Positions 49-52,760 of a DNA stretch of 64,000 nt are shown here, piece by piece. A program made the translations under genes and the position numbers. The notes beneath the pieces are model-generated. The model did no database searches, was not told the origin of the DNA, and worked only from the letters and a program-made list of their open reading frames with translations. Each line of letters begins with the position of its first letter. Position 1 is the stretch's first letter. Source of the DNA: Edaphochlamys debaryana (lineage: Eukaryota > Chlorophyta > Chlorophyceae > Chlamydomonadales); NCBI GenBank assembly GCA_016858145.1, contig JAEHOE010000003.1, positions 1,550,001 through 1,614,000 on the forward strand, written 5' to 3'.

Positions 49-2802
49 CTGCGGCAGTACGGGGTTGGCCAGTTGCAGATGGTCGTACAGCCGCCGCAGG
101 CTCCTGGGAGGGGCGGGGGTTTGGGGGCTTGTGATGAGCACAGGAGTTCGGGGTCCTTCATGACCCGCCCCGCCCAGGTAGTGGAGCCCGTCTCCCCTCC
201 CTCCTTCCCTTCCCTTCCCATCCCTTCCCTTCCCTTCCCTTCCCTTCCCTTCCCTTCCCTTCCCTTCCCTTCCCTTCCCTTCCCTTCCCCTCCCCTCTCC
301 TCCCCTTCCCCTCACCGCCCCTCCTCCCTGTACCCCCACTCCGTCCCTCACCGCCCCTTCCCTCCCTCCCCTCCGCCCTCACTTCCTGCCCAGGGGCGTG
401 TCGAAGTTGGATGCCGACAGGTCCACGCCGCTGGCCGCGCGCCGGTCGCCCCGCGTGAGCGCCCCCAGCGACTGCAGCCGCCGGGCCACGGCAGCGGCGA
501 AGCGCTTCTCCCCGCCGATGCGGGTGGACATGAGCCTTAGGGGGGGAGGGGGGCGGGTGGGTTGGAGGGGGGCCCCATGAGGGGGGAGTAGGAGGGCAGG
601 AGGGAGTTGGGTGGTGTTGGGGTAAGCGGCGACCATACGCACTGCAGCATGCTCTCCACACGAGGCGTGTGTCGCCAGTCCACTACCCCCAGCCCCTCCT
701 CAACAGATGCCCCAAAGCTCACTTGTAGATGGGGGCGGTGACCTGGTTGGAGCGGTGGGAGCGGCCCAGCTGCTGAATGGCCTGGGGGGGGGGGATGAGC
801 AAGGGGTTGGGGTGGGCGGTGATTCCCTAGTGCATCCGCAGTCCCCGCGTCCGCTTGGGATCATGCATGATCTATCCGGATCTATCCGGATCTAATCGGT
901 ACCCCGCCCCTTGATCTGCACCTATCCCGCCCCACCTTGTCCGCTGACCAGGGCAGCTCGATGGTGAGGTGCAGCCGCCGCCGCTGGTTGGCCACCGCCC
1001 TGCGGGGGACCCAGTACGCTTAGACAGGCCAAGGCATGCCCTGCCGCCGCGCTCCCTGAGGCGCACCCTCCATAGGAGCACACCCCTGCACACACCCCGT
1101 CATCTACTGACCTACCTTCGACCTCACACCTGATCCCCCCCCCCTCCCCTACCGTGACGCGTGCAGGCTGGTAATGGTGGAGGCTGCGACCTGTTCCGAG
1201 GACCCCCCTCCCCGCCGTGACGTGCAGGGGAAGGCCCATACGCCCCCGGCCCCCTTCCCCCCCTACCGTGACGCGTGCAGGCTGATCCCCGTGGAGGCTG
1301 CGTCGCTGATGATGGCCACCAGCTTCTTGCCGCACATGAAGGCGTCCTTCTCGGAGACTATGTGGGGGTTCGGGGGTTCGGGGGGGTCGGGGGTGGTCGT
1401 GAGGGACGTGAGGGCGGAACACGGGAGGTCGGGAAGTGCCCAGGCCTGCTTATATATACCTTTCCTGATCATGCCCCGGCCACCCCGCAACCCCCTATCA
1501 ATCTAACAAGAGTGAATCCGCCGTTGCCCTGACACCCCGCACCCCGTCCCTCCTCACTGTTGAGTGAGTCCATCTCGTTGCTCTCGGGCTTGGCGCGCAG
1601 CTCGTACAGCAGCCGGGGCCGGGGGGCGGGGGCACCACCCCCACCCCCGCCCCCGCCACCCCCCACCCCCGCCCCCCCTGCCGGCTGAAGCCGCACCACC
1701 CGGCCCTTGCGCCCCGTCATCTCCGCCACCTGGGGGGCAGCGGGTGAAGGTTGGTGACTAAGGGAGGCCAAGAAAGGCAAAAGGTAGGCACACTGTCACT
1801 CTTCAAGTACCAGACACCGGTCTCACACTCGCTGCCGAGCTGGACAGCCCCTCGCCATGGCACGCCGCGCCCACGCCTGCCCCAAGCCCCCCTGAACCAA
1901 CTCCACCAACCCCCCTCTTCTCCGATTCTCAACACGCCCCACCTTGCCCGGCCCCCCCAGGGCGTCGATGATTTCGTCCAGGAAGTTGGGCGGCAGCGGC
2001 AGCGCCTCCGCGGCCGCCAGCAGCTCGGCGCGCATGGACACGCAGCCGGGGACCTCCTCGCCCTGGGGTGGGGGCTGACCTGGCTGCTGGGGGGGGGCCT
2101 GGGTCGGCGGCGGGGGGGGCTCGGGAGCCTCCCAGTCCTGGGCGTAGCCTGTGGAGGGAAGAGGAAGCGCGGAAGAAGGGGGGTGTTTGGAGTGAGCGGG
2201 ATGTGTCGCCTACGCCAGGGAGGCGAGGGAATGCGCAGACTCAAAGGCCATCCCTGGCTCACCGTACGCGCCGCCGCCCCCGACCGCGTAGTCCGGCACG
2301 TCCCCTGCGGCCGCCGCCCCCGCGCCCTTGGCGCCGGGCGGCAGCTTCCTGCGGGCGGCGGGAGGGGGAAGGGAGGGATCAAGGCTGAACACGCAGATCG
2401 CGTGAGCCAGATGTGTGTCAGCCAATCCCCATCGTGAGGTTGCGGTCCAGACGCTCGCCTCCACGGACCTCCGTACGCCCGCGGGCTCCCGAGCACGCAC
2501 AGCACGCACAGCCGCGCCTCGCCATGCCCCCTCAGGAGCCTGCTCCTAGCCCCCTCCCTCCCGCCTCCCCGCCTTACCGCGTGGGGAAGTGCGTGGCGAT
2601 GAACCTCAGCAGCATCTCCTTGGTGGGGCTCACGAAGCCGGGCACGGGGCCGGGCTCCAGACCCACGGCGTCAGCGGCGGCCTCGCCCGTGGTCTGGGGT
2701 GGGGTGGGGTGGGGTGGGGGGAGTGATAGGAAGGCAAGGGCATAAGCAAAGATACGGGCCTTGCAACGGGGATGGCTTAGGGCCCCTCAACACCCCCCCT
2801 CA

Positions 2803-2836
<34 letters not shown>

Positions 2837-5800
2837 CACAGAGCACCTCTTCCCACCCTTGCTTCAAACTTGCAGCCCCACGCCCCACCCCCCACACCTG
2901 CAGCCCAATGACCACGCACTGCCCCGAGCTCAGGGCCTCACGGGCCTCAGCGATGACGGCCGGCACCTGGGGGGAAGAACCGAGAGGGGCAGTGGACGGC
3001 TTGGGAGGCTGGCGCGGCGGCTGGTGCTTTAGCGTTACACTTACTAGCTTGCACCCTCCCCACCCCACCCCAATGCCGCTGGCTGCCGCTACATCTTCCT
3101 TCCCTCCAGCTGCCAATCCGTCAAAGTAAGATCGCCCCCCATCCGCCCCCACCTTGATGCTGACGCATAGCAGCTTGAAGAAGCGCTGCAGTGTGGCCCA
3201 GTAGGCCTTGAACACGTCCCGGCCCGACCCGGTGGCGGCGCAGGCGGCCTCCAGCTGCAGCCGCAGCCGCTGCCACAGCTGGGGAGTGCGGGGGGGAGGG
3301 GTGCGGGGTGGGGAGGGAGAAGGTGTTGGGGAGGATGCAAAGCTTGGAAGGGGTGTGTGGAAGGGCGGGCGGAGGGTGACCGCTCTGGCGGTTGGTACCG
3401 CAATGCCTAGCCTCTCCTCTCCCTCCGCCCGCACCTGTACGGCGTTGTCGTACATGCGGATCTGGTCGGGGTTGAGGGGCGCCTCCACCTCGCTAAACTC
3501 AGCCTCCCTGCGGAGGAGGGTGGGCGAAGGGGACCACAAGCCATCGCTGGTCCCAAGCCTCGCCCTTGCCCAACCCAGCAACCGCTACCGCACCCCGGCT
3601 CTCAAGAACACTTTCTGGTGATAAACGGCCGTCATATTGCTTGAATTATCCCTCATGCCGCGCCCCTCTCTTACCTGAAGCTCAGCCCCCGCGCCACGTA
3701 CTTGCCCTCCGCCTTCATCTCCATGGCCAGCATCTCCATGAAGGACACGCCGCGGCGCTTCATGCTGGGAAGGGGGGGGGGCACGGGATTTTGTGAGTGT
3801 GTGAAGGACACACCCCGCCGCTTCATGCTGGGGAAGGGGGGGGCACGGGATTTTGTGAGTGTGTGAAGGACACGCCCCGCCGCTTCATGCTTGGCGGTGG
3901 AAGTGTAAGGGAGACTGGAGAGCCCGAAAGGTATGGCGGCAGCCAGCGAGGGCAGTGCCAAGGGGTGGGAAGCCTTCCAAGCGCTTGACTCCCTCCCGAG
4001 CCCCCCGGGGGGCCGCACCTCTCCAGGAAGGCCTGGAAGCTGTCGAAAGCGGTGCCGGGGCCCCACAGGCCCATGCGGGACATGTAGGCCATGTTGCCCA
4101 CCTTTGGGGGGGTGGGAGGGGGAAACGAAGGGGGCGCGAGGGTCGTTGATTCGCGCCAGCGCCAGCGCTGACCGGGACCACGCCCACGCCCTCCGCACAG
4201 CCCGGCTTCCCACCTCGCTGACACCCGTAGCTGGACCCTAGGCTACCGCATCGACGGGCCACACTCCCCTGCGCCCCACGCCCACGCTCACGACCCCTCA
4301 TGGCCATCCCGGCCCACCTCGCTGACGCCCGTGGCCGAGGCGTAGAGCACCCGGGCCTGGGGCAGGCGCTCCTGCAGCGAGATGACGGCGGAGGCCACCT
4401 GGGGGTGGGGGGGGGGTCGAGGTGGAGGTCACAGGTCGGGCAGAAACAAGGACAGGAGGAGCCCCCTTCCGCTCCGTCAAGCAAACCACAGCGGCATCCC
4501 CTCTCCTCCCTTCCCCCCCCCTTGCCTTGGTGGACGCCGACTCCTTGCCGGGCACGAAGTTCTTGGCCTTGTGGCACTCGTCCTGGCGGGGGTGGGAGGG
4601 GTGGGAGGGGTGGTGGGGTCGGGGCGTGGGGTGGAGAGGGCAGCAGCTTGTGGTATGAAGGGTGTGACGGTGACTTGCTAGAATGAGTTGCCTCAACCCG
4701 CCCACCGCCCACCGCCCACCGCCCCACCCACCAGCACGATGAGTCCGTCCCAGGCCGCCTCCGCCGCCCTGGCCCCCGGGCCCCCGTCCGCGGCGCTGGA
4801 GCCCCCCTGCGTGCCCACGCCGTGCACCAGCCAGTCCATGACCTGGGGGGTGAGGGAAGGGAAGGGAGTTGATGCGGTGTTAGCGTCAGTCAATGCCGTG
4901 AAGAGGGCAGGGGAGGGAGGGGGCAGGGGTTGTCGGCTCGACAGCCAACTGCGTTGCCCCCACCTTGCCTGTGGCGCCCACCGCCCCTGCCCCCGCCCCT
5001 GCTGGTCCGCGCCCCCCCCCCCCCGCCTCAGCCTGCCCTACCCCGCCCTCGCGCCTGCCCCGTTGCCCCCGCTACCACCCCTCTCCGCCACCGCCACCGA
5101 CAACACTACCCCCGCCCCAGCCGCGCCTGCTGCAGGCGCGCGCGGCCCCTCTGCTGCGATATGAGGGCGGAGTAGGTCCTGCACCGGCGCCAGAAAGGGG
5201 GGGAGGGGGGGCAGGGACGAAAGACGTGAGTGAAGAGGCGAGTGTTGCGGGCACCGCCGTCGGAGCCGTCCGCCATCCCGCCGCTCCGGCACCCCCAATC
5301 TCTCCTGGCCGTGACTTGCTCAGCACTCGGCACCCCTCTCCCCAACGCTCCTCCCCCCCCCTCACATGAACAGCACCCCCTCCCGGTACTCCTGCGCCAG
5401 CCCCAGCGCGCGGCTCTCCCGGTCGAGCGAGGAGACGTTGTTGATGACCTGCGGCCGTGCGGGCGGGAGGGAAGCGGCGCGACACGACAGGAGCGGCTGG
5501 CAAGGAGAGGAATGCGCATTGGGTGTGACAGGGCGAAAGGAGCCCTCCTCTCTCTGCCCCCCTCTCTGCCCAGTGGTTGGTTAGCGGCTGCTCCCGGCCA
5601 TGGGGCTAAGGGCAACGGAGGCGCACGTGGGACACGGGCATGCCTCTCCCTCTGTCCCCCCCCCCCCCACCGCCCCTCTCCCCCCCCCCCACCGTGACGT
5701 GGCAGCCCAGGTCCCTCAGGTCCCGGGTGGCGTCCGCGTGCAGGTCGGAGGAGGTGGACAGCCACAGGGCGCGCCTGGGGGCATCGGGTGGGGGGGGGGG

Positions 5801-7056
5801 CGGGTGTGAGACAGAGGCCGGGCGCGTGCCAGCAGGCTGTGCCCACCGACCGAGCCCCATGCATCCGAACGCCATAACACGTGCGTGATTCAGCCAGCCT
5901 GCAGCCCCCGTGCCCCGGACGCCTCCCCCCATGGTCTTCCGGTGCCCCTCGGGCCCCGCTCCCGCCTCACTTCCTGCCGCGGGCGAAGTTGTCCACGATC
6001 ACGCCCGCGATCTGCCGCCCCTTGCCCACGCCCGCGCCATCGCCGATGAAGAAGCCCGCGCCTGGATTGCGGTGCGCGGCACACCGGGAGAGGGGCGGCG
6101 AGGGGCGAGGGCGCGGGGGTGGGCATCGTTTCAGCGGCCCCTACCATGCAGCATCAGTGGCGGTACCCATGGCCGGAACTAATGTGCTCTCCTAGGCCCA
6201 CATCGATATCAACTCACCAGCAGAGCAAACATAGGCTGTGCCCCGACTACCCCTGTACCCCGGACTCACGCTCCCCGCTGGTCACGCAATCCCCGCGCCC
6301 CGCGTCCCAATGGTACCGCACCCCTCCCATCGTCTAGAGCGGCCCAGACACTTCCCCCCACCCCCTCCGCACTCACGCTCCCCGCTGGGCAGCTGCTGGC
6401 AGTGCTTGTTGCAGGCGTACAGAACCCCCTCCAGCTGCAGCTGGGACAGCCGGCCCGAGGCCACCACGTCGGGGGGCAGCGCGTCCCACAGCGGGTAGGA
6501 GCAGGGGGGCAGCGGCACGGCGCTGCAGGGGCGCGGGGGAGGAGAGGGGGAAGGAGGGGGTGAGGTGAAACGAGGAGGCAAGGAGCCGGAGTGCGGGAGT
6601 GCGGCCCGGCCCTGACGTTGCCCCACCGCCCCTCAACACGTCCAAAGCCCAGACCCCAAGCACGCACGCGAGCGATGAGGCCTCCGCCACGTCACCCGGG
6701 TGGGGCTTGCCGCGGCCGCCCAGGCTGCGGCACACGTAGGAGCTGAAGACCTGCGGCGGGAAAGGGGGAGGCGCCGAGCGGGTGTTGCGTGGCTGTGGCC
6801 CCGGTCTGTGGCCCGCGTTCCTCGCGGTCGGCTCGAGGTTACACCACAGCTCAACAGCAGTCGCCCGTAGTGCTTTGAACAACGCAGCCAGAGCAAAGGG
6901 GAACTCGGCGAGAGCCCATTTGCGCGGCGACATAATTCTCGGCCTGCTCGCCGCGAGCAGTCCGATACAACTCGGGCTCGTGGCTGATTCTTAGAAGCCT
7001 ACCTGCTTCGTCGCGCTTTCCGCCAGACCATCATCGCCACCCGCCTCGTCGGCCAT
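49..7056 (-). CDS. SBNO: Strawberry-notch (SBNO) helicase-like protein, 3' partial
   Basis: Nuclear superfamily-2 helicase-like regulator. Seen: start ATG at 7056, then exons 7003-7056, 6668-6750, 6377-6522, 5971-6061, 5693-5774, 5366-5448, 5127-5178, 4732-4842, 4526-4582, 4318-4398, 4019-4101, 3675-3764, 3435-3507, 3153-3278, 2898-2966, 2578-2693, 2263-2348, about 2080-2148, 1943-2062, 1558-1729, 1267-1357, 936-999, 723-781, 383-535 and 49-103; the rest lies beyond base 1. Family motifs in order: [19 protein letters not shown] (P-loop, residues about 101-109), [15 protein letters not shown] (about 235), [89 protein letters not shown]. Phases close throughout except around 2062-2148, a low-complexity linker whose junctions are uncertain. 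Two introns look GC-AG (donors after 4526 and 5127). Its introns carry copies of exon edges. Diverges from the leucyl-tRNA synthetase gene across 0.87 kb. The family assignment is firm; the target in algae is unknown. Confidence 0.9.
203..290. repeat. (CCCTT)n pentanucleotide microsatellite
   Basis: About 17 copies of a TTCCC unit inside the second-last visible SBNO intron (104-382). On the SBNO strand it is a purine run (GGGAA). Confidence 0.9.
1147..1304 (-). repeat. Duplicated SBNO exon 3' end plus donor
   Basis: The last ~20 bases of the exon ending at 1267 and its donor (plus strand cctaccgtgacgcgtgcagg) recur at 1147-1190, inside the downstream intron, 114 bp away. After a short mismatched stretch both copies share ggtggaggctgcg or a close variant. 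Confidence 0.85.
2804..2833. repeat. (CA)n microsatellite
   Basis: About 15 CA dinucleotides within the SBNO intron between 2694 and 2897. Confidence 0.95.
3737..3900 (-). repeat. Triplicated SBNO exon 5' end plus acceptor
   Basis: The start of the exon at 3764 (coding MKRRGVSF) with its AG acceptor and flanking G-rich sequence is present three times at about 64-bp spacing (from 3737, 3802 and 3866 on the plus strand). Copies share tgaaggacac, cgcttcatgc and gattttgtgagtgtg. The two extra copies lie in the upstream intron and offer alternative acceptors. Confidence 0.9.
4213..4341 (-). repeat. Duplicated SBNO exon 3' end plus donor
   Basis: The end of exon 4318-4398 (coding ATGVSE, then gtggg) recurs with a few mismatches at about 4213-4236 in the intron, roughly 104 bp away: plus strand acctcgctgacgcccgt versus acctcgctgacacccgt. 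Confidence 0.85.
6264..6388 (-). repeat. Duplicated SBNO exon 3' end plus donor
   Basis: An 18-bp perfect repeat, actcacgctccccgctgg, at 6264-6281 and 6371-6388. The second is the real donor and end of exon 6377-6522 (PSGE, then gtgagt). The first is a full-quality decoy donor inside the intron, 107 bp away. Confidence 0.9.
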
Positions 7057-7929: not shown

Positions 7930-10252
7930 ATGTCCTCCCGACTGCTGGCTGAGCCTGCCGGTGGGCTGAGCACCACTCGGTCGCTCAAGCCGGGGGCTGC
8001 CGTGCCGCTCCGGCCTTGCGCACTGCGATGCAAGCCTTTCTCCAGCAGCGCTGGTCCTCGCCCATATGGGCCCCTGGCGGGCGCCTCTTTCGCCGCCCGG
8101 CCTGTGCTGCAGCGCGTGAAGGCCGTGGAGACGGTCGCTCCTCCGGAGGCCCCATCCTCGCCCGCGTCTGCGGACGGAAAGCCGTCGCAGGCCTACCCGT
8201 TCACGGAGATTGAGGCGAAGTGGCAGGCGTACTGGGAGCAGAACCAGACCTTCCGCACGCCTGACCAGGTGGATACCAGCAAGCCCAAGTACTATGTGCT
8301 GGACATGTTCCCCTACCCCAGGTGCGCTGCGCCCCGGGCCGTCAGCGCGGTTGCCGCTATGGCTCTCTGGAGAGCTTGGGGATACGAGGACAGGGTGGAG
8401 GGTGGTGTGATGCGGGGGGGCCTGGGGCTTGGGGCTTGCAGCCTTGAGGGCGGGTGAGGGAGAGGGGTCTGTGGCGGTGCGTGGCGTGGGTGGCCCTGGC
8501 CGTCGCTACGTCACGGCTAGCCTGGCGCCTGGGTCCCACGCGGTCTCGCCTCGCCGCTCCCCCCCCCCGACCTGGTCACCCGTCTCCACCCCCCATCCTC
8601 CACCCCCTCCCGCCGGCCGCCAGGCCCCACCCACCCACCCCACTCCTCAACCACCTGCCCCTCCCCACCCCCCCCAACCCACCCCCAACCCACCCCACCC
8701 CACCCTCCACCCCACCCCCTTACTTCCACCCACCCACCCCCCAGCGGCGCCGGCCTGCACGTGGGCCACCCCGAGGGCTACACCGCCACCGACATCCTGG
8801 CCCGCTACAAGCGCATGACGGGCCACAACGTGCTGCACCCCATGGGCTGGGACGCGTTCGGGCTGCCCGCGGAGCAGTACGCCATCCAGGTGGGGGTTGG
8901 GGGGTGAGGGGAGGAGGGGGAGAGGGGATGGGGGAGGGAAGGGGGCAGGGAGGGGGCAGAGGGGGAGGGCAGGGGCTGAGTCGGATGCGGAAGGGGGGCT
9001 AACGGGGTGGGAGTGGAGCGCTGGAAGGTGCAGCGGCCGAAGCAGGGGCAAGGAGGTTGGGGTCGGGGGCGCACTGCGGGTGCGCTTCGCAGCAAGCCCG
9101 CCTGCCCCACCCCACCCCGCCTCCCGCCTCCCGCCTCCCACACCGCCCCCTCCGCACCCCCCCCTGCAGACCGGCACCCACCCCGCCGTCACCACCGCCC
9201 GCAACGTGGACCGCTTCCGGCAGCAGCTCAAGGCGCTGGGCTTCAGCTACGACTGGAGCCGGGAGGTGGCCACCACGGACCCGGAGTACTACCGGTGGGG
9301 TGGGGGGGCCGGTGGTGTTGGGTGGAGAGGAAGGGCCGCGGGGAAGGGGGGTGGTAGGGGGGGGGGGCAGGACCGGGACGAGTCGGGTCAGGACTCGGAG
9401 CACTACCGGTGGGGGCCGGGCGGGGGTTGGAGAGGGGGGTTACGAAACGGAGGCGTTGGCCTATGCACTGGCGCCCACCCCGCCTCCGCACCCTCTGCCT
9501 CGTCCACACCTTGATCCGCCAGGTGGACCCAGTGGATCTTCCTGCAGCTTTTCAAGAAGGGCCTTGCCTACCAGGTGGGGGGGGGCGTGGGGTGGGGTGG
9601 GGTGGGGGGTTGTTAGGGGGGAGGGCTTGGGGTGGGGTGGGGTTAGGAGGGGCCGTGGGCCCGGGGCGAGGAGGGGAGAGCGGTGAGGGCCTGGGAACGC
9701 GGGATGAGGGCTACGAACGTCAATAGGCGCCCGGGCGTGGGTGATGTTTGGGTGGGCTCACTTGCCGTCCTGGCTTGGACACCGATGCCAGATACCTGCG
9801 GGAAGGGGTGCCCCTGCTCTTGAACCCCTCTACCCTCTCCCCAATCCCCCCACCCCCCCAACCCTACCCCCGCAGGCCGAGGTGCCTGTCAACTGGTGTC
9901 CCGCCCTGGGCACGGTGCTGGCCAACGAGGAGGTCATTGACGGGGTGAGGGGGGGGGGTGAGGGGGGGCTGGGGGGGAAGGGCCAATGGGTGGATGGTGG
10001 CGGAATGACGTGAGGGGGAGGCTGGGGTCTTGAGGGAGAGCGGACGAGGGCGACGGGGGAGATGTGTTGAGCAGGTTAGAGGGCAGGACCTTCAAGGCGC
10101 GATGCAAAGGACCCTCCGACCCACTCCTCACCCCCCCACCCCCCACCCACCCCCCACCCCACCCCCCTAACCCCCACCCCCCTAACCCCCACCCCCCTAA
10201 CCCCCACCCTTCAGCTCTCGGAGCGCGGCGGGCACCCCGTGGTGCGCATGCC

Positions 10253-10288
<36 letters not shown>

Positions 10289-13200
10289 GGAGCGCCTGCT
10301 GGCGGACCTGGACACGCTGGACTGGCCGGACAGCATCAAGGACATGCAGCGGAACTGGATCGGAAAGAGCGAGGTGGGGCGGGGAAGGGGCGGAGAGCTG
10401 GCGTCTTGGGAGGGGCCGCACGGCCCCAGCCAAAGCGCATGCGCCGCTGAAGCACCCCCCGTGGTGGTACCTGGCCGGCGTAACCCGCTGTAACTCGCCA
10501 ATGTAACCCAAACCGAAACCTCCAACCGCCAACGCCGTACCCCCAGGGCGCCGAGGTGCAGTTCGCCCTGGCCGGCGGCCCCGGCGCGCACCTCCCCGCC
10601 GACGCCTCCGTGAGCGTCTTCACCACCCGCCCCGACACCCTGTTCGGGGCCACCTACCTGGTGCTGGCGCCGGAGCACCCGCTGGTGGCGCAGCTGGTGG
10701 GGACGGGGGGGTAGAAGGGGGGTGAGCGTGTGTGTTTCGTGACGCGTGGGGGTGTCGGCACGGGGCCACCTACCTGGTGCTGGCGCCGGAGCCCCCCCTG
10801 GTGGCGCAGCTGGTGGGGACGCGGGATGGGGGGGAGAGGGGGGAGCGTGTGTGTTTCATGACGCGTGGGGGTGTCGGCACGGGGCCACCTACCTGGTGCT
10901 GGCGCCGGAGCACCCCCTGGTGGCGCAGCTGGTGGGGACGCGGGATGGGGGGGAGAGGGGGGAGCGTGTGTGTTTCGTGACGCGTGGGGGTGTCGGCACG
11001 GGGCCACCTACCTGGTGCTGGCGCCGGAGCACCCCCTGGTGGCGCAGCTGGTGGGGACGCGGGATGGGGGGGAGAGGGGGGGAGGGAGGGGGGGAGCGTG
11101 TGTGTTTCGTGACGCGTGGGGGTGTCGGCACGGGTCCATGTGCCGGCTGGCGCAGCAGCAAGGAGCGGCGCACAGGGGCAGGGGCCACAGGGCCGTCCTT
11201 CACACACGCTCGTGTCTCTGCCTCCACGTCCTGTGCCCAACCACCACCCCCAACCAAACCCCAACCACCCCAACCACCCCCAGGCCACCCCCGAGCAGCG
11301 CCCCGCCGTGGAGGCCTACGTGGACGCCGCCTCCCGCAAGTCAGACCTGGAGCGCACGGAGCTGCAGAAGGATAAGACGGGCGTGGCCACGGGTGGGGAG
11401 GGGCGGCGCTGGGGCTGGGGTGGGCTTGGGTTGGTTGGGGAAGGATTGTGTGGGTTGGCTGTGGGGGAGGTAGCACAAGAGGGGAGAGGGGAAGTGGAGG
11501 GGAGGTGTTCAGAGGTGAGGGCCGGGCGGGGCCATGGGGTTGTGTGAGGAGGGAGGACGTGGTGAGATTGCAAAGCTCAATCGCTCATCTTTTCCCTGCT
11601 CCTGCGCACCCCTTTCCCCCCCCCCCCCAGGCTCCTTCGCCGTCAACCCCGTCACGGGCGAGCGGGTGCCGGTGTGGGTGGCGGACTACGTGCTGGGCTC
11701 GTACGGCAGGTGCGGTGCGGCTGCGGTGCGGTGCCGCACAGCACGGCCACATGGCCGCAGGGGGTCATGAAGCAGGCGGCGGCCGCCAGCAGCCGGTTTT
11801 ACGCTGGTCCTCTCGCGACCATCGCCCATGAAATACCGGCTCCAACACCCCACACGTGTCTCTCAACGCCATCCTCCTCAGTAACAACCCCCACGTTCCT
11901 CCCTTCTCCCCCCCCCCCCCTAGCGGTGCCATCATGGCAGTGCCGGGTCACGACTCCCGGGACCACGAGTTCGCCGTGCGCTTCAGCCTGCCGATCAAGC
12001 AGGTGTGTAATATTTTTTGGGGGGGGGGGCCTCGGGGGCGGGGACGGCGGGGGGAGGGCGGTGCGGAATGGGAACTCGCCCGGCTACCTGGCAACGGCGG
12101 CGCCCGACCGCACATCCTCCATACCTCCGTCCCTTCTTCCTTTCCCCCCGCCTCGCTTGGCCAACCCCCAGGTGGTGAAGCCCGCTGACGGCTCCGAGGT
12201 GGCCCTGCCGTACACGGAGCCGGGGGTGGCCACCGGCTCCTCCTCTTCCGCCCTGTCCCTGGACGGGCTGGGCACGGAGGCGGCCAAGGAGGCGGTGGTG
12301 GCGTGGCTGGAGACCTCGGGCAAGGGGGCCAAGCAGGTGGGGAGGGGCTGGCGTTTTGGAGGGGGCTGGAATGGTGGAGAGGATGGTGCGAGCAAGGGAG
12401 TATGCTGGGGCCGAGGCTGGGGCGAGGTGGGTTATAAGCTGGTTGGTTGAGGTTGTCGCCCTTCGCCTCGCCCCGTTCTGCCGTCCGAGGCGCCGAGGCG
12501 GGGGCGCACGCCATCCGTCCCTCGGGACTGGGGCACACATTATGTCGTACTTGGCCCGACTCTTTCAACCCCATACGCTATCTACCCCCCCAGATCAACT
12601 ACAAGCTGCGCGACTGGCTGTTCGCTCGGCAGCGGTACTGGGGCGAGCCCTTCCCGCTGGTCTACCCGGAGGGTGGGCGGGGCGGGGCATTGGGGATCAG
12701 GAGGGTGCTGCAGGCTGCCCGCTATGCGCCTACGGGGTACGGCGGCTCTCAACGAGCAGCAGGGGCAGTAGTCACGGGGCGAGCGCGCAAGACGCAATGC
12801 AACTGGAACTTCAAGTTCCTTCCTTCTTCCGCACCGCAGGCAGCGATGAGGCGGTGCCCATCCCAGAGTCGGAGCTCCCTCTGGTCCTGCCGGAGACGGA
12901 CAACTTCAAGCCCAGGTGGGGGCAAAGGGACCCCGGGAAGCCAATCGTGTGGGAGTCGGGAGTCTTGTACACAAGATCCCAGATGCAGCCATTATCATCG
13001 TCAACCCCCCCCCCCCCATCCCGCCCCACATTGCCGACCCCTCCCGCGCGCCTTCTCCTCCTCGCCCCCCACCCCCCCAGCGGCACCCCCGAGTCCCCCC
13101 TGGCCGTCATCCCCTCGTGGGTCAACACCGTGGACCCACGGGACGGCACGACGCCCGCGCGCAGGTGGGGTCGGGGCCGTGCGTGTTATGTCTCCGCGTT

Positions 13201-34195: not shown

Positions 34196-34215
34196 GGGAT
34201 GTATGGACACGCGCA

Positions 34216-36546: not shown

Positions 36547-36786
36547 ATTGCCATCGCCCGAGCTCCTAGGCGTGCATGCATAGGCCAGCGGCAGTACGCG
36601 CATGCCTCCCCCGTGGTTGTGCACTGACGTGACATCCTCTTCGCTCCTCAGGCCACGCCGCCATCACCGCCTTCTTGCCTCGGGCCAAACTTCGCAGGGC
36701 ACGCGCAGCCAATGCACCTACCCCCGCCACCCAGACACCGATTGGTAATGTGGTAGGGTCAAGGGGCCCAGGCGGAGGGCGCTCAA

Positions 36787-37557: not shown

Positions 37558-40500
37558 ATGCAGACTTCCCTGCAGCGTCGTAGCGGTGTCGTGGGCTCAG
37601 CGCGTGGCCAGGTCGGAAGTCGACGACCTGCTGTCGGTCGTCGCTCGTGCGTCGTTCCGCGAGCGGCAATTGGAGCCTCCGGTCCTGGCCTAGATGAGCC
37701 GATTGTACTGGTTGACGGCCGCGTTACAAGTGGGCCGGTGAGTCCCAAACTAGGGCGAATTGCGATCACCATGTGTTGGAGCCTGCGCGCGTTCTGGCCA
37801 CATGCAGCCGCTGTATGTTTCAGCCTGCTGATCGTGAGCATTAGCGATTTCCGGGGCCTTCCCGCGCAACTTCTTGTGGGATTCCTGCCACGTCCTTCTT
37901 GCGAGGCCTTCGAGCAGCTCCCGCCACCCACACTTTGCACCTATCGTTCTCTCCCAGACAGCAACACAGAGCTCGCCTGCAGGCTTGGCTCTCGGCTGCT
38001 GGTCGCGTGCGTGTGGGCCTTCGAACGTCCGCGTCACCCCCCCAACCGCCTTGCCTCCCCGGCGCTCTCTGCCCCCACCCCCCAGGACCTGTCCGTGACT
38101 GTCAATGGCATCAAGTTCCCCAACCCCTTCGTCATTGGCTCCGGGCCCCCGGGCACCAACTATCAGGTGAGTGGTGTATGCACTGTCTCATGAGGGCGGG
38201 GAGACAAGGGCGGGGAGACCTGTGCCTCCTCCTAGACAATGCCCACTCGGCTCACGACGGCCCCCACACCCCGCCACCACCGCTGCCCGCAGGTCATGAA
38301 GAAGGCCTTCGATGAGGGCTGGGGCGGCGTCATCTGCAAGGTTGGGCCGCGGGGGGCAGGGCTGCAGGGTGTGTGGGCGGGTGCAAGGGGGGTCCCTGCA
38401 GGGGCGAAGGGACAGGAGCCTTGGCCCGGAAGCCCTGTCTGGTGCATGAGGTTGGGGCCAGGGCAAACGGGCCACTGCTGGTCCAGTTGCCCCTCCCTCT
38501 TATGTCTTATCTCATGGAGAAGTGCTGCCGGCACTGCGGAGGCCAGGACGAACCGGAAGGGCGGCAGTGGGTGCCAGAGCCGGGCACTGTCTCCTAGCTG
38601 GGGCTGAAGCCTCCCTTCGCTGCTGGCGGGAGGCGCGGCGCATGCGTGGCCACACGTGGCGTGCTCCGCGGCTTCATGCCGCCCTCAACCCTCACCCCTC
38701 CCGGACCCCCTCACCTTCACCCCCTCACCCCACCCCTTCTGCGACCCCCCCTCACCCCACCCCTTTTGTGAACCCCACCCCTGTACCCGCAGACCCTCTC
38801 CCTGGACTCGTCCAAGGTGGTCAACGTGACGCCCCGCTACGCCAAGACGCGCGACTACTCGGGCCGCGTGTTCGGCTGGCAGAACTTTGAGCTCATCTCG
38901 GACCGGCCCTTTGAGACCATGATTGCCGAGATGAAGCGGCTGCGGGAGGAGTACCCCAACCGCATCCTCATTGCCTCCATCATGGAGGAGTACAAGTGAG
39001 GGGGGGGAGAAGGGAGGGAGTGGGGGGAAGGGAAGGGGGAGGGGTGGAGGGGTGGGCTAGGGGGGAGGGAGGCGGTAGGGGGCAAGGGGAGGGGCTATGG
39101 GACTGCGTCCATCATGGAGGAGAGGGCAGGGGTGGAAGGGAGAGCCCTGACTCGATCATGGAAGAGGTCAAGTGAAGGGAGGGGAGGGGGGGAAAGGGGA
39201 GGGGAGCAAGAAGAGGCAACGGGGGAGGGGGTCTCGCCATGGTCCTTCACATTACGCCCAAGGCTCCTTGAAATGACCCTGCTGGACTCTCCCTCATCAC
39301 CCCTCGTCCCCTTCCCGCCCCGCAGCAAGAACGCCTGGGAGGAGATCATCGGGCGCTGCCAGGAGATCAACGTGGACGCCTTTGAGATCAACTTCAGCTG
39401 CCCACACGGCCTGCCGGAGCGCAGGTGGGGCGGGAAGAGGCGAGGGCCGCTGGTGGACCACCCGGATGGGGGCGGAGCCGCGACCAGCAAACATGAGGCT
39501 CTCTGGGATGACAACCTGAGTACTGGGGGCTGGGGCTCGGATGGAGCGGGAGGCGGGACGGGGGGCTGGGCTGCCATGCAGGGGTAAAACGCCTTTGGAA
39601 TAACGCTCTGCCCCCTCGACCACCTCCTTTCCCACCCACCCCTCTTCATCTCTTCCCCCCCCAGGATGGGCATGGCCATGGGCCAGGACCCTGAGGTGCT
39701 GGGGGAGGTGTGCGGCTGGATCAACGGCGCCGCCAAGGTGCCGGTGTGGGCCAAGATGACGCCCAACGTGACGGACATCGCCTACCCGGCTGACGTGGCG
39801 CTCAAGGCGGGGTGCGAGGGCGTGGCGGCCATCAACACCATCTCGTGCATCACGGGTAGGGGGGGAGGGGGGAGCAGGGGCGGGCCTCAGGGGGGGGAGG
39901 GGAGAGAGGGGGCTACTAGGGGGAGGGACTAGGGGGCGGGGGGCGTGGCGGCCGCAACTCACCATCTCGTGTATCACGGATAGGGGGGTGGAGGGGGGGA
40001 GGGAGGGGCCAGCAGAGGGCTGCCAATGCGACCGGCCAGCAGTGAGGAGGGAATGTAGGCGCAGGACTTGGGCAGGCAGATCGGCAGGGACCACAGGACG
40101 GCATAGGACCCCCTGCCGAGCCTTCGCCTCCCCTCCCCCGTCCCCCAGGCGTGAACCTGGACACGCTGCGGCCCGAGCCCTCTGTCGAGGGCTACTCCAC
40201 GCCCGGCGGCTACTCTTGGAAGGCCGTCAAGCCCATTGCGCTGGCCAAGTGCACCGCCATCGCCAAGCTCATCGAGCGGGACTACAAGGGGCAGGGCAGG
40301 TGGGGCGGCAGGCGGGGGCGATGGGGGAGGGGCAAGGAGGGCGGAGGGGTGGGGTAGGAGGAAAGTGGCACGGGCAGGGAGGGGGAGAGGGGCGGCGCTG
40401 GGGCGCCCTCGTCAATGGGCAGGCAGATGGAAAGGCAGCACAGCGCGGCCGCCTGGGCAGCACGGCGCATAGTGCAAGGCACTTTCACCCTGCCCCCTGC

Positions 40501-41430
40501 CAACGCTGCCTAGCCCTGTCCCTGTCCCTGCTCCCGACATGCGCCCGAGCGACTCTCGGCCCACCCCACCACTTACCCCCACCCACCCGCAGGTCGCTGT
40601 CGGGCATTGGCGGTGTGGAGACGGGCGGTGACGCGGCCGAGTTCATCCTGCTGGGGTCGGACACGGTGCAGGTGGGTTGGTGGATGAGGGAGGCAGGGAA
40701 ACAAGGAAAGGGCCGGGGCTTGCGACAGTCGGGAGCAGGTGCAGGCGCGATTGGAGCTGACGTGAGACCAGTCAAGCTGGCAGGGAAAGGGTGGGGAGGG
40801 TAGAGGGAGGGCAGTCGGCAAGTGTGGCCGTTGTGGATACGGCCGGGTTGAAGGAGGGACAAGGGGAGCAGGTGGGAGCATGGCTGGTACTGGCGACCTC
40901 CTAACCACCAACCCTACAACCGCCAACCGCCAGGTGTGCACGGGCGTCATGATCCACGGCTACCCCGTGGTCAAGAACCTGTGCGGCGGGCTGCAGAAGT
41001 TCATGGCCAAGCACAACTTCAAGTCGGTGAGTCCATGTGTCTACGGAGCTGCCTCCTCTCGACGAGAGGTGCACGGCGGAGGACGCTTCACCGGGGCGCA
41101 GCGAGGCAGCGCGTTGGAGCATTACGGATGGGTCTTTGTTGGCGTTCGGCGGCCTTGCTTGCGCTGCCCTTCCCCAGTGCACGGTGTGCCACAGCTACGC
41201 GCACACTTTCCGACCCCCATTCTCCACCCTCCCCGCCTCCCGCCCCCCCGCTGCAGATCGACGAGTTCAGGGGCAAGTCGCTGCCGTACGTGACGGTGCA
41301 CAGCGAGCTGGTCAAGCGCCAGCGCGAGGCCATCGCCGCCAAGAAGCAGCGCGTGGGGCTGAGCAACGACGCCGAGTGGAGCGGCGACGACTTTGTCAAG
41401 AACGCCGAGAGCATGGTGGCCAACCGGTGA
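37558..41430 (+). CDS. PYD1: Dihydropyrimidine dehydrogenase (NADP+), plant type, plastid
   Basis: First step of uracil/thymine breakdown: reduces the pyrimidine ring with NADPH on FMN. Ten exons: 37558-37737, 38086-38166, 38293-38340, 38793-38995, 39326-39424, 39665-39855, 40149-40299, 40593-40671, 40934-41026, 41257-41430; 1299 bp, 432 residues, all phases closing. Residues 1 to about 40 are Arg/Ser/Ala-rich without acidic residues, as in a plastid transit peptide. The mature protein opens with DLSVTVNGIKFPNPFVIGSG, the dihydroorotate-dehydrogenase-like FMN barrel. The active-site Cys is in NFSCPHGLPER. FMN and substrate motifs follow: VWAKMTPNVTD, EGVAAINTI, LRPEPSVEGYSTPGGYS, GIGGVETGGDAAEFILLG and VCTGVMIHGY. 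The length fits the plant enzyme, which lacks the Fe-S domains of the animal protein. Introns 4 and 6 and the 3' UTR hold copies of exon edges. Convergent with HCF173. Confidence 0.96.
38975..39180 (+). repeat. Copies of the PYD1 exon 4 end in its intron
   Basis: The exon end tccatcatggaggagtacaa|gtgagg (to 38995) is echoed by gcgtccatcatggaggagag at 39105-39124 and by cgatcatggaagaggtcaag followed by tgaaggg near 39154-39180. Spacing is ~130 and ~180 bp. Confidence 0.85.
39818..39990 (+). repeat. Duplicated PYD1 exon 6 end plus donor
   Basis: About 48 bp ending exon 39665-39855 (gggcgtggcggcc ... accatctcgtgcatcacgg|gtaggg) recurs at 39941-39990, ~124 bp downstream, as accatctcgtgtatcacgg|atagggg. 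The copy's donor has decayed from GT to AT. Confidence 0.9.
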
Positions 41431-41615
41431 GCGGCGCCTGCGGGGGCCGCCTGCGTGGAGGGTGGCCAACCGGTGAGCGGAACTCCCTGCGACAGGCTAG
41501 GAGGGGTGGCCAACTGGTAAGCGGTGCAGGCGGCCGGGAGGGCTGGCCAGCCGGCGAGCGGTGCAGGCGGCCACTTGATTTACAACAGGCGTGGAGGTGG
41601 CCAACTCTAGAGTGG
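41416..41615 (+). repeat. Minisatellite grown from the PYD1 stop-codon region
   Basis: The sequence ggtggccaaccggtgagcgg, which holds the last codons and TGA, is repeated at 41461 (exact), 41505 (ggtggccaactggtaagcgg), 41542 (gctggccagccggcgagcgg) and in part near 41595, at ~37-45-bp spacing in the 3' UTR. Confidence 0.92.
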
Positions 41616-43134: not shown

Positions 43135-46100
43135 CTACGTGTTCTTGGCCAGCGAGGCCACCGCCGCCCGCAGGTAGTTGTTCTTCTTATCGGGCACGTG
43201 CGCCACCAGCTCGTACATGGTGTTGTCCTCGTCGCGCTGCGGTACGGCAGGAACGGCAGGTACGGCGGTTAGACGGCTGGTTGCGGTTGCAGTGTACGGG
43301 CCTGACCCTTTTCCCGCGGGCCTGTGCACGCCCGCACACGCACCCCTCACCCCTCCCACCCCCCTCCCCTCCGTTACGCACCTGGTACTCGTAGCACACG
43401 TCGAAGGTCTTGTTGCGGCCCTCCGGCTCGTGCAGCGCGCGCAGGCAGATGTCCGCCACGTCGGCGGCCGAGATGGACTCGGTGATGCGGTCGCCCTGGT
43501 CGAACACCAGCGCGCGGTAGCCGCCGGGCTCGTCGATCAGCGTGCCTGTGGATCGGTTAGCAGCAAGGGCGGAACGAGGAGGTGAGCACTTGGCGATGTG
43601 GCGCGTGGCGAGCCCGTAATTGAAACCTCATCTGACCTCGAACGCGCACTTTTACAAAGCCCGGTCGCCATGACCTTCAGCCCCCGTGCCTTCCGTGGCC
43701 CACCCACCCGGGCGGATGATGGTGTAGCCCAGGCCGCTGAGGCGCAGGTTCTGCTCGCCCCTCCGCTTGGCCTCCGTGATCTTGCGCAGGTCCGCCTCGT
43801 CCACGCCCTCGCGCGAGCGGCCCGCGCACGACACCAGCACGAACTCGGGCTCGGAGCCGCCTTTGGGAAGGGGGACAAGGGGGGGGGGCCAAGAAGGCGG
43901 GGTTCAGCGTTCGCAATGTGTTCCCCGCAAACACCCACGCTCCCCGCGGCTGGCGGGGCAGCCCTCGCGCTACCCCCCGCGCCCTGTACCGGCCCCTTCC
44001 TTCCCCCCCGCCTCCCCCCACTGTCCCCTTCCCCTCCTCCCCTTCTCTCTCACTCTGGTTACCAATTCGTCATAAATCTCCCCCCTTCCCCCCCATTGCC
44101 CCGCCTCCTCACCCGGCAGCGCCTTGATCCAGTCCACCTCCAGGCTGAACCGCTGCTCCCGCGCCGCCTCCGCCGCCATCTCCTGCAGCGACCGCCCGCT
44201 CAGGCCCTTGGCGGCGCGCGCCGCCTGCGCCGCGGCGCCCGCGGAGCGGCGGTTTTCGTAGCGGAGGGTGATGTTGCTGAGCCTGGCGGGGTCCAGGGGG
44301 GGCTGGCCCTGGTACTCGGAGCGGAAGGCGGCGAAGGGAAGTCGAACCGTCAGGTAGCCCTCGCGCGTGGGGAAGCGCGCGCCGTAGCGGTGGCCCTCGG
44401 CCGACTCCAGGATGGTCAGGTACGAGTGGCCGTCGCCGCGCACGCGCAGCACGAGGCCCTCCGTGCCGGCCGTGCGGTGCTCGCCGCCCGGCAGGGCCTC
44501 GGTGAGGGAGGCGCCCACCTCCGCAATGGCGCCGCGCGTCCCCAGCGAGCCTGGAGGGTGGGGAGGAGGCGGACACGGTTGGAGGTTGGGAGGACGGGAG
44601 CACGGGGCCCTGCCTGGCCAACGCCGCAGTTTGCGCGGTAGCCGTATGCGCCTTGCGTGGTGGCCAAGCTCAACCTGTCGGCCTAGCTGGATATGCTACG
44701 ACGTTTGCGGCATGCGGACAAGCGCATGAATTGATCAAGGCGTGGACGCAGCGCGTCTGTACCGTACTGCCAGGCAGCGCCCCAGACGTGCCCAGTGCCC
44801 TGTGGTGTACCCAGCCATGCTCGCTGACTGATATAATGCTCGAGTGCACACAGTTATGGTGTACGCACACGGGCACATGCCAACCCCTGCAATGCCGTCA
44901 TAGATCGTAGGCGTTCAAAGGCGGCAGCCCCACCCCCCCTCCCGCCGTGGGCAGGTACCGCAAGCGGGTTGGTGGGTGCTGAGACATGTTGTGCAATGCG
45001 GCTTGCGCGGATGCACGCGAGGGCTCGGCGTGTGGGGAATTGCCGGGGCGGCAGTTGTTCCCTGACCCTCGGGCGCATCGACCCTGCCACTGCACACGCC
45101 CAGCCCCTCCAGGCCCCGGCGAGGCTCCCGATGCCGTTCCTCCCCTTGCCCCCACCGAGCCCAGGACCGCTCCACAGAGCCCTCCTGCGGCCCCGCCTTC
45201 CCACCTTCCATCCAAACCCCAGCCCCTCCCACCGGAACTCAAAGCCACGGGTCCTGCCAGGCCCCAGTCCTTTCCACCACACAGCGCTCTGCAACACCCA
45301 CCCTTCCACCCTCCCGCCCGGCCGCAAGGTGACTGGGGGCCTGGAGCCGAGCGTGCCCTGGTGCACTCGCTTGCATTGCGGTTTGCTTTAAACCCTCCCT
45401 CCCTCCCACCCATCCACCCTCAGTTCCACCCTGGGACCTGCTGGAACAGCAGGTTGTTGCTCCACCGCCACTCCCTCCCAGCCCACTCACCCTGGAATAG
45501 AAGGTTGTTCTCCTCCGTGATGACCGCCTCGGCAAAGTTCGCCTGCGCGTAGGGGTCGTTGCGCCGCTCGCGGCCCTCAGCCACCGCGGCCGCGTCCTCG
45601 GGCGTGCCCACAAACCGCACGTCCCACCGCCTCTGCGCGAGAGAGATTCAATTGGAGCGAAGGAGGAGGATTCAGAGGCAGGAAGGGGCATTCAGACGGG
45701 CGCGTTTGGAGGGAGCGGGAGAGGCGAGCTTCGCATGCGGTGCCTGGGGTACCGTACCTCGCAAGCTTTCTAGGTTGCTAGGGGCGCGGCCTGACCTGGT
45801 GGAAGCGGGAGTTGAAGTCGGCCACCTCCTTCTTGGCAGCGCCGTTGAACTTGGAGCCAGAGCGCTTGGCGCGGCGGTTCATCTCGTCCTGAGGAAGGGA
45901 GGCGGGGGCAAGGGGTGAGAGGAGGGGTCGGGCGGTGCGCTTGACCTGATGTCTGCACACGCCAGCAGCCGCAGCTCTGCCTCTCCCTCTTGACCACACC
46001 AGCCCACCGACCACCCCATCGGAAAAGCCCGAGCGAGTGCCCCTGCGCGCCCCACACCTGCAGGGCCTTGACCACGTTCATGACACCCCGGTCGTCCACG

Positions 46101-50500: not shown

Positions 50501-52642
50501 CCCCCCGCAGTGCCAGCACCTCAACGGCTCCCGCCTGCTGACCGCCTCCTTCGACGGATCCCGCGTGTTCCGCGGCTACGGCGTCAACACGCGTGGGGAG
50601 CTGCTGTCGCTGGTGACGCCGCACGAGGGCCGCCTCACAGCCTGCAAGGTGGGTGGATGGGGGGGCGCCGCTGGGCGCATGCTGGAGAGCCCAACCGCAG
50701 TATCACCTGAGAGCACCTTGACTGCTGATCGCAACATGGCTCCTAGCCGGGAGCTCATTCGCGAGGCCTAGACCGCTGCGGCGCCGCTTGAGGGACGGAT
50801 CGGGGCCCGAAAACCGAGGAAGCTGGGGGCTGGGCGTTACCGAGTCCAGCTTGTGTCCTCCCGCGCTGCCGCCCCCCCCCCCGTTCCCTCCCGCCCCCGC
50901 ACCAGGTCCACAAGGCCTCGCCGCTGCCCTGGCTGGACATCGCCGCCGCCACGTCGCGCCCCTCCTCGCTGCTGCTGACGCCCATGCGGGGCTACCTGCT
51001 GCTCACGCACGGGACCACGCACGTGGTGCGCTGGGGTGGGGGCGTGGAAGGCGGGGGCTCGGGGGGGGTGTAGGCACGTGTGGTGGAGGTCCGGCACGGG
51101 AGGGGCAGGGGGCCCTCCGCGCAGCGTTGGGGAGGACTGGCGTGGAAGAGAAAGGGAGGTGGATTTGAACCAAGGGCTGCCGGTTCAATCCAAACCAACT
51201 CCCAACTTCCAACTCCCCCCTGGCAGGTCTTCAACGTGACGGGCGTGCTGCGCAGCGGCCTGCCCTTCCTGGCCGCCGTGGGGGACGGGGAAGTCGGTGC
51301 GTAGGGCAGGGAGAGCAGTGTTGGCAACTTTCAACCTGCCCGCCGCATCATCCTGGCCCGCATGGATGCTGGCCTATCAATGGACGTGCCCGTGCCCTGA
51401 CCACCCGCCCCCCTGCCCGCCCCGCCACCCCTCCCCTCGCAGCCGGCATCGCCAGCCACATTGCCATCACGCCCCCGCCGCCCAGCCCTCCGGGCAACGC
51501 CCCCGCCCAACCCTCTTCCGCCACCTCTTCCGCCACCTCCTCCCCCGCCTCCTCGTCCTACACGAGGGACGCCCCCGGCCCCGGCTCCGGGGGGCTGCCG
51601 GCCTTCTCCGGGGGCCTCATCAACGGACTGCTGCCGCCCCCGCCCGTGGTGGCAGTCGGGCAGGGCAGCCAGGTCCTCATCCTTGGCGTGGGGCCCGAGC
51701 CCCTGCCCTCCCCGGACCCGTCACCGTCTTCGGCCGCGCCAGGGCCCGACGCGCCCGGGGGCCCAACCCAGGCCCAGGCCCAGGCCCAGGCGGGCCCGCT
51801 GCAGGCCCCCGCCGCGGGCCTGGTGGTGGTGCTGGAGTCGCGGCTGCCCCGCATGGCGCCCAGCGCCGCGGGGTCCAAGGTGTGGTCGCAGCCCATCTTC
51901 ATAGGTGCGTGCGTGCGTGCGTGCGTGCGTGCATGTGCGGAGGCTGGGGCCTTGAGGCTTGCGTCCTCGAGGGCCGTATCCGCTCCCTCTTGCGAAGTGA
52001 GCCGAATGCCGAAGCCGAAGCCGCCCTGCCTTCACACCCCGGCCCCCGCTCAGCTCCAGGTCCAAAGCCCCCGGGCACCACAACTCCCCTGCCTCCCTCC
52101 CTCGCTCCCTCTCCTCCCTAGGCGCCATCCTGATCGTGGGGCTGTACCAGTTCTGGCGCATGTCCAACACGCGCAGCCAGCAGGCGCAGACGCAGGCGCT
52201 GCGGGGGGGGCCGCGCGGGCCGCTGGGCGGCTTCCGGCCGGCGCGCGGGCGGCGGGGCATGTACGGCCCCGGGTACGGCGACACGGACTACGCCGGGGTG
52301 GGTGTGGGGAGGGGTGGGCGGAGCGGTTGGCCGGCGGCTGCCGGAAAGGGCTCGGACTCTGGTGTGACTCTGTGTGGGCTGACGGCCCGGGCCCGTAGAA
52401 GCAGGTCCTGGGCTCCTGGCTCGCCTCCTACAGAGTTCTCACTCCACCCTGCCGCTCTCCTTGCGCCCTCCTCCACCCGTGCCGTGCCGTGCCGTGCCCC
52501 GCTCGCCCCCACCCCGCCGCCCCCGCCCCTCCAGCAGCTGCCCATGCAGCCCCGCAGCGCCCTGCGGGGCAGCCGGCCGCGCACCGACCGGCCCGCACGC
52601 TCCGTGAGCTATGCTGACGAGGACGATGAGGGGGAGTACTGA
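47506..52642 (+). CDS. Type I membrane protein, At1g75140 family, beta-propeller-like
   Basis: Uncharacterised plant-type single-pass membrane protein. Exons 47506-48314, 48534-49574, 49834-49967, 50210-50292, 50511-50648, 50906-51025, 51227-51296, 51443-51904, 52122-52297, 52535-52642: 3141 bp, 1046 residues, phases closing. The N-terminus (LKCACVLVLIVLSISPNLLRA) is a signal peptide. A long Pro/Ala/Glu-rich lumenal stretch with a possible coiled coil around residues 215-250 follows. The conserved propeller-like region begins near VTCAFAFELP and runs through VYIVAGDAAGGLYLL, VVVTGHANGQTRSF, HVLVLDRAGNVRL, LNGSRLLTASFDGSRVFRGY, MRGYLLLTHGTTHV and GQGSQVLILGVG. Near the end, QPIFIGAILIVGLYQFW is the transmembrane segment, then a basic/acidic cytosolic tail ending EDDEGEY. 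The order matches my recollection of the Arabidopsis family, which is ~600 residues; the excess is low complexity. Intron 48315-48533 is a multiple of three without stops, so retention would keep frame. Function unknown. Confidence 0.8.
51905..51929. repeat. (GTGC)n microsatellite at a donor
   Basis: Six GTGC units start exactly at the donor following exon 51443-51904, so several gtgcgt donors sit in tandem 4 bp apart. Confidence 0.9.
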
Positions 52643-52760
52643 GGGGGAGGATAGGGGGGGGGGTAGCCTTCGAAGCGCCGTCGAGAGGTGCCGTGAAGGG
52701 GGCGAGAGGGGAGGGCAGAGGGGAAGCTAGGCGGACGAGGACGGTATGGCGGAGTACTGA
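52616..52760 (+). repeat. Copy of the stop-codon region in the 3' UTR
   Basis: The coding end gacgaggacgatgagg ... gagtactga (52616-52642) reappears as gacgaggacggtatgg ... gagtactga at 52734-52760, exactly 118 bp downstream, with the TGA conserved. Confidence 0.9.

Follow-up and report, generated by a model that had tools for sequence, protein, structure and literature searches.

Exon-edge copies in introns of the green alga Edaphochlamys debaryana and a dispersed 25-nt word at splice borders

Introners, as portrayed by Gozashti et al. (2022; PMC9860276), are whole introns that are alike at both intron ends and have target duplications of 3-9 bp where these are present; their detection in that report demanded similarity at both ends of the intron. 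Rogers-type intron gain by local duplication is represented by the potato RdRp paper (PMC4974935), which also describes an 83-bp duplication within an intron without structural change. Introns in the algal group to which our host belongs are of unusual length, without the common peak at 60-110 bp; the account in PMC8226300 gives the advantage of such length as unknown and its driver as probably ancient. Here we describe copies of exon edges in the adjoining introns, and of stop regions downstream of them, in a stretch of 64,000 nt from Edaphochlamys debaryana (assembly GCA_016858145.1, contig JAEHOE010000003.1, positions 1,550,001 to 1,614,000; "the window", or W), together with a 25-nt word, M (CGTGTGTGTTTCGTGACGCGTGGGG), which lies in one array of such copies in a leucyl-tRNA synthetase (LeuRS) gene and is dispersed over intron borders elsewhere in the genome.

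The copying of exon edges is confirmed as recurrent, local, direct and non-random, with copies mainly spaced 104-137 bp. The analysis covered a single genome (141.9 Mb in 502 contigs, G+C 66.4%), in which the window and three control regions, C1 and C2 of 100 kb each and C5 of 60 kb (G000:C5:200001-260000), formed a sample of 324 kb, and 20 further loci were added. A hidden Markov model (HMM) gene finder trained on the sample itself predicted 551 exons and 489 introns, the latter with a median of 194 nt and with donors mostly of the type GTG[A/G]G; after exons shorter than 25 nt had been merged into introns (among them the copy at 1153, first predicted as a 15-nt exon), 66 gene models with 469 introns remained. 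Low-complexity masking affected 7-16% of the sample. The last 45 nt of each exon were compared with its own downstream intron at a score of 20, with the expectation taken from other introns. Donor edges were found again in 12 of 457 cases (0.59 expected) and stop regions in 4 of 63 (0.14 expected), acceptor edges in 2 of 465 (0.30 expected) and starts in 0 of 62 (0.05 expected); stops are copied like donors, acceptors and starts hardly at all.

At the same score, exon segments from -90 to -45 gave 0 of 386 (0.35 expected) and those from -135 to -90 gave 0 of 257, the next-but-one intron 0 of 407 (0.51 expected), the inverted donor 0 of 457 (0.59 expected) and the inverted acceptor 1 of 465 (0.37 expected). 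The mirror control yielded 1 of 469 (0.27 expected), with no excess at score 22, and single matches were obtained for the exon 3' edge in the upstream intron (1/407, 0.30 expected) and for the 5' edge in the downstream intron (1/407, 0.22 expected). The intron interior from +20 to +65 exceeded expectation as well (5/360 against 0.30), two of the five being the arrays of LeuRS and of the CSN4 gene in C5. When matches were anchored at the edge and the score lowered to 14, donors gave 29 of 458 against 6.3 expected, and 16 against 3.8 at distances of 100-140 nt; a rank test within each intron was weaker, with 11 donors against 4.7 and 4 acceptors against 4.7 at p <= 0.01. Occurrence is uneven: at scores of 18 or more we counted 8 cases per 113 introns in W, 3 per 130 in C2, 5 per 95 in C5 and none among the 131 introns of the 100-kb C1 block, i.e. 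8 per 356 outside the window, and the 16 cases are spread over ten genes where random placement would give 13.5 (p 0.014). All eleven places at which the sequence-only reading had reported exon-edge copies were recovered, with small corrections of coordinates and spacings, and the ways in which that reading might have failed (equal matching in shuffled or non-adjacent introns, or the absence of a preferred spacing) were not borne out.

The genes and copies within the window, apart from the LeuRS array, are the following (window positions).

49..7056, minus strand: SBNO (strawberry notch) helicase gene, HMM model of 24 exons with Pfam AAA_34 and Helicase_C_4, incomplete at the window edge; it hosts four exon-edge copies
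1153..1188, minus strand: copy of the SBNO donor edge 1267-1302, spacing 114, decoy donor GTAGGG retained
3739..3891, minus strand: acceptor-side tandem repeat of SBNO with the exon head at 3764, 62-63 bp x 2.4
4214..4231, minus strand: copy of the SBNO donor edge 4318, spacing 104, intron part similar too (p 0.01)
6270..6284, minus strand: copy of the SBNO donor edge 6377, spacing 107, GTGAGT retained
7930..16226, plus strand: bacterial-type LeuRS gene, 24 exons, phmmer match to 1h3n at E 1e-247
9391..9408, plus strand: copy of the LeuRS donor edge 9294, spacing 114, weak (anchored score 14.0)
16428..16445, plus strand: copy of the LeuRS stop region 16209-16226, spacing 219, stop codon retained
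36748..41430, plus strand: PYD1-like dihydropyrimidine dehydrogenase gene, phmmer match to 1gt8 at E 3.5e-66
39104..39122, plus strand: copy of the PYD1 exon tail 38972-38990 (edge 38995), spacing 132, ending 5 nt before the donor, which is unmatched
39960..39979, plus strand: copy of the PYD1 donor edge 39855, spacing 124, GT changed to AT in the copy
41461..41572, plus strand: serial copies of the PYD1 stop region 41415-41434 (stop 41430), at +46, then +44 and +37
45440..45458, minus strand: copy of the donor edge 45491 in a NAD(P)-binding/CIA30 gene, spacing 51, donor lost; additional to the cases of the sequence-only reading
52725..52760, plus strand: copy of the stop region 52607-52642, spacing 118, TGA retained

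The edges placed by the gene finder match those reported earlier, and the joined proteins of LeuRS, CSN4 and PYD1 run without a gap across the relevant junctions when compared with solved homologues (for LeuRS, over 10696/11284 against 1h3n); the native donors are therefore correct there.

The introns concerned measure 193-1424 nt, and the copies lie 51-137 nt away, with one at 370. Of 15 spacings, 12 share a single 34-bp bin, an outcome that none of 5,000 simulations produced (the 370-bp case was omitted and the sub-threshold case at 9294 included), so that the clustering first noticed at about 105-130 bp stands, mainly at 104-137. The omitted case, near the C5 donor 55487, is a 45-nt exon segment found again 370 bp downstream; similar segments occur at further intron ends in this block, and the case looks like duplicated first exons. 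A blind scan for direct repeats (score 22) revealed a strong excess at short distances, high at 90-149 bp and with a dip at 150-199, against 0.03 per bp at 1-2 kb. Pairs joining an exon or exon edge to an intron numbered 1 at 20-49 bp, 4 at 50-89, 13 at 90-149, 3 at 150-199, 5 at 200-299 and 6 at 300-400; in the first three of these classes there were 21, 9 and 17 intron-intron pairs (11 of those 17 being units of the CSN4 and LeuRS arrays) and 13, 5 and 4 intergenic pairs. Per base of distance, the peak at 90-149 bp belongs to the exon-edge pairs; once array units are set aside, intron-intron pairs are densest at 20-49 bp, as are intergenic pairs. The proposal that the copies look exon-bound only through constraint on the exon is too weak in view of this specificity and of the copied exon part, which measures 12-52 nt in 14 cases (0 by the same measure in the 38995 case) and is shorter than random placement would give (p 0.0003 for the longest, 0.0001 for the median).

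After the copy a G-rich stretch resembling an intron start resumes (0.525 against 0.322, p 2.4e-6; 14 cases including CSN4), and copy-bearing introns are G-richer just past the native donor (0.567 in 16 cases against 0.437 in 407 introns, p 6e-5). The intron half of the duplicated segment is similar in both arrays and, at p <= 0.05, in 5 of the 13 other cases, not in the rest; at C5 38704 the exon bases are identical at 31 of 31 positions and about 100 bp of intron show no match (p 0.26). In 9 of 16 cases the score of the copied donor is near that of the native donor; in 7 the copied donor is weakened or lost, including changes of GT to TT, AT and AG; the spacing is not a multiple of three in 12 of 16, and an in-frame stop precedes the copied donor in 9 of 16. 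As a separate observation on the whole sample, 215 copy-free introns of at least 200 nt change in composition along their first 200 nt, with G declining from 0.52 to 0.26 and C increasing from 0.21 to 0.41, so that many exons should have complementary flanking tracts.

The LeuRS array led beyond the window, since its unit holds the word M.

10645..11081, plus strand: LeuRS array of exon tail, donor, G-rich tract and word M, period 119 (spacing at 10696: 116-119), 3.7 units
10727..10751, plus strand: first LeuRS copy of word M (CGTGTGTGTTTCGTGACGCGTGGGG), 30 nt from the donor; more copies at 10846, 10965 and 11097
10697..10756, plus strand: proposed element of about 60 nt, comprising splice site, G-rich tract and M; in the 22-locus alignment conservation stops after M, and the left end is a tentative placement

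Genome-wide, 44 exact copies of M are distributed over 34 loci separated by at least 500 bp; with up to three mismatches allowed the count is 230 (exact copies included), against none for the reversed word. The loci cluster on some contigs, with 6 on C59 and 5 on C65. A search with the LeuRS unit yielded 58 non-self matches; apart from three, these end by position 59 of 119 from the donor, and several stand in series about 115-120 bp apart. The CSN4 unit yielded 15 non-self matches. We examined 20 regions from these searches (18 via LeuRS, 2 via CSN4) together with LeuRS and CSN4 themselves, 22 loci whose host exon peptides differ. M is present within three mismatches at 18 of them, and variants sharing its start are found at L050, L051, L052 and CSN4. 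At every one of the 22, the word nearest the exon begins 25-48 nt beyond the predicted exon edge and is directed away from the exon, 17 loci being at donors and 5 at acceptors on the opposite strand. A G-rich tract of 25-48 nt extends from the splice site up to the word, and directly past M conservation is about zero.

The segment preceding M is repeated after it above the largest null score at 17 of the 22 loci (13 of the 18 with M and 4 of 4 variants), with a duplicated exon part of 22-59 nt, on average 45. The loci range from a single word between two copies, the order copy - M - copy seen at L040, L043, L044, L045 and L053, to arrays of up to eight words with periods of 107-127 bp, once 132. 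Loci with the order copy - M - copy do not arise by one tandem duplication of an M-bearing unit, so more than one step is needed. An inverse M flanks the other side of the same exon at L043, L045 and L054; at the opposite border of the intron no inverse M was detected within 6 mismatches in the 12 of 22 introns covered to both ends.

A 20-nt core of M was absent from the prokaryote genomes and viral contigs searched and the element region from plasmids, the six Rfam matches obtained for 7 loci were all below gathering score, and M folds no better than shuffled words. By loose edit distance within the sample, shuffled words match as often as M. Comparison of all 938 intron ends gave 208 pairs, the strongest of the top 40 being paralogous genes; that top 40 also holds C5 donor 30658 with C5 acceptor 38127, which by eye resembles a diverged M. 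Diverged M-like words are likewise seen by eye at intron borders of the C5 block near 30658, 38127, 40559, 41170 and 42011, four of the five in CSN4; edit distance alone places them no better than a chance control. At L048 (G000:C77:374050-374600) M and a short exon piece are followed by a long run of repeats.

We give an even chance to the possibility that insertions at intron borders left the exon-edge copies behind as scars. An element of about 60 nt, made of a splice site, a G-rich tract and the 25-nt M, would land directly against an exon edge, and the adjoining 22-59 nt of exon would be duplicated together with the old splice site, giving the order exon tail - element - exon tail - old intron. 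The GT of the element (AG on the other strand) could serve as the new splice site, leaving the reading frame unaffected, while the old site would become a decoy in a longer intron. Exon tail and element might then be amplified by unequal exchange or slippage into arrays of 107-127-bp units, with one step of 132. Copies would persist where the first signal encountered is correct, as at donors and stops, and be mostly purged where it is wrong, as at acceptors and starts. We read the loci with M as border insertions that duplicated a long target and then grew in tandem, which accounts for their position, their orientation, the single-word loci and the arrays. At L041, L043, L044, L045 and L053 the exon copy has diverged by 8-18% while M is intact or has one change (at L040 both are intact), a contrast biased by the fact that the loci were found through the word. 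The cases lacking M, i.e. all those of the sequence-only reading except the 10696 array, share much of their spacing and anatomy with the M loci, 10 of 13 donor cases falling at 104-137; their origin may lie in elements, decayed or of another kind, or in plain tandem duplication.

Several results weigh against insertion at borders. No mobilising enzyme turned up, although a partner reverse transcriptase was not searched for, and no empty site was found in this one genome. The exon edges at most M loci depend on the self-trained gene finder, and a Pfam family was recognised in only 1 of 9 locus peptides (RAD50 for the L043 peptide reached only E 1.5). No significant exon copy exists at 5 of the 22 loci (L041, L042, L047, L049, L054), at L048 the exon copy, judged by eye, ends before the donor, and the duplication at L045 and L050 extends through the G-tract to M, which makes the left end of the element uncertain. 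The queries themselves contained the G-rich tract, so M sites devoid of it would be missed. The 13 donor cases without M, among which are six of the seven donor cases of the sequence-only reading, show no excess of M-like sequence as a group (mean 6.77 against 6.76; best p 0.02, for the 4318 case). Furthermore, at score 18 the exon 5' edge is found in the downstream intron 6 times against 1.19 expected and the 3' edge in the upstream intron 4 times against 1.48, and an anchor 60 nt inside the exon gives 8 of 254 against 2.3 at score 14 (0 against 0.1 at score 18); some copying is therefore not bound to edges.

The same material might be explained by ordinary local tandem duplication of 50-140-bp segments across a splice site or stop codon, through slippage or paired-nick repair, with rapid decay of the intron half, the exon half remaining recognisable, and with M spreading separately and being caught in some units; we hold this to be somewhat improbable, though a serious candidate. 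It agrees with the intron similarity seen, the LeuRS and CSN4 arrays apart, in 5 of 13 cases, and direct repeats closer than 150 bp, whether intron-intron, exon-exon or intergenic, are all above the 1-3 kb control. The clearest instance of plain duplication is the 62-bp tandem repeat at the SBNO acceptor: its spacer (within 3739..3891) had no other match in the genome search, and as a putative second family its 17-nt word gave 5 matches against 4 for a control. What tandem duplication does not predict is the C5 38704 copy, with its perfect exon match beside unmatched intron, nor an exon part too short for random placement, and the copy - M - copy loci require more than one step. The sequence-only reading had taken the copies to fit repeated local tandem duplication; the copying is indeed local and direct, but a purely local origin is not supported, as the LeuRS array at 10645-11081 belongs to a dispersed intron-border family.

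It is also possible, if doubtful, that G-rich tracts beside donors stall replication or form R-loops or quadruplexes, and that the nascent strand slips back into the exon and duplicates its tail with the tract. The G-richness of copy-bearing introns past the donor fits this, as do regional means, which are raised in W and C5 and, to a small extent, in C2 (regions not singly tested). Such slippage would leave the dispersed 25-nt word unexplained, the unit at C2 40441 is G-poor (0.21), and the acceptor side has a complementary C-rich tract yet few copies, so that selection must be added. That the copies are functional decoys or alternative splice sites under selection is very improbable: near-native donor scores in 9 of 16 would suit it, whereas the remaining 7 are weak or lost, most spacings (12/16) are out of frame, in-frame stops occur in 9 of 16, and stops are copied too. 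Chance or low-complexity matching of G-rich sequence, which the G-rich introns and the masked part of the sample might suggest, is practically negligible, being refuted by 12 donors at score 20 against 0.59 from other introns, with none inverted and one in the mirror control.

Returning to insertion at borders, a far-reaching version of it appears unlikely to us and is put forward as speculation. It would involve a so far undescribed kind of micro-element with a body of about 25 nt and a G-rich tail, targeted to splice borders on either side of the exon, supplying a new splice site, duplicating about 45 nt of exon as its target and seeding exon-bearing arrays; acting repeatedly over time, it could be a main engine of the long introns of this algal group, with their general G-rich start and C-rich end as its fossil record. 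A mutational process that adds about 100 bp at a time at splice borders and leaves the protein unchanged is a testable candidate for the cause of long introns. Our results support the earlier suggestion that copying lengthens introns and leaves decoy donors; the accompanying suggestion of intron gain by duplication across AG|GT is not supported, as the copies sit within longer introns. If the element is real, it would also provide a natural experiment on how the spliceosome chooses among identical neighbouring donors.

Two further features of the window were noted. Within the predicted span of the PYD1 gene, GGGAGAGG is repeated 29 times at 36793-37023. Two paralogous genes lie side by side in inverted orientation at 53983-57568 and 58464-62013 and retain similarity in their introns, with 68 identical nt at one donor start; gene conversion or recent duplication may be responsible.

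In the open-access titles and abstracts searched we found no description of exon-edge copies or of word M. Several known systems share part of the pattern. SINE-like retroposons have one sharp end, one variable end of simple sequence and a long duplicated target. The M element may resemble them in its sharp end past M and in the G-rich tract of 25-48 nt opposite, besides the duplicated target, and differs in a body of only about 25 nt, a duplication of about 45 nt, its placement at exon edges and the lack of a source RNA in the Rfam search of 7 loci. Break repair in plants generates tandem duplications with filler that is normally unique; short direct duplications with an insert at the junction are common to both, but in our case one 25-nt word is shared by many loci. 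Intronic minisatellites and satellite DNA likewise form tandem units of about 60-130 bp, whereas each array examined here is seeded with its own host exon end.

With Rogers-type intron gain, as presented in PMC4974935, the copies share local direct duplication over an exon-intron border. They differ in that the copy remains in the old intron, with no sign of a new one, and the joint duplication of an exon end with an intron end, or of an intron start with the next exon start, was not observed. Like introners (PMC9860276; for Micromonas, PMC3879977), as far as these are characterised there, the M elements are a short multi-copy family at splice borders of unrelated algal genes, able to give a splice site, and multi-copy similarity in introns of unrelated genes was found (44 exact and 230 near copies). 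Unlike introners, the M element lies at one border only, in longer introns, with frequent arrays; similarity does not reach both intron ends, since conservation stops past M, and in place of a 3-9 bp target duplication and/or terminal inverted repeats, 22-59 nt of exon are duplicated at 17 loci. If the element reading is true, it would be a one-sided relative of introners, probably discarded by a published search that, as described, required similarity at both ends.

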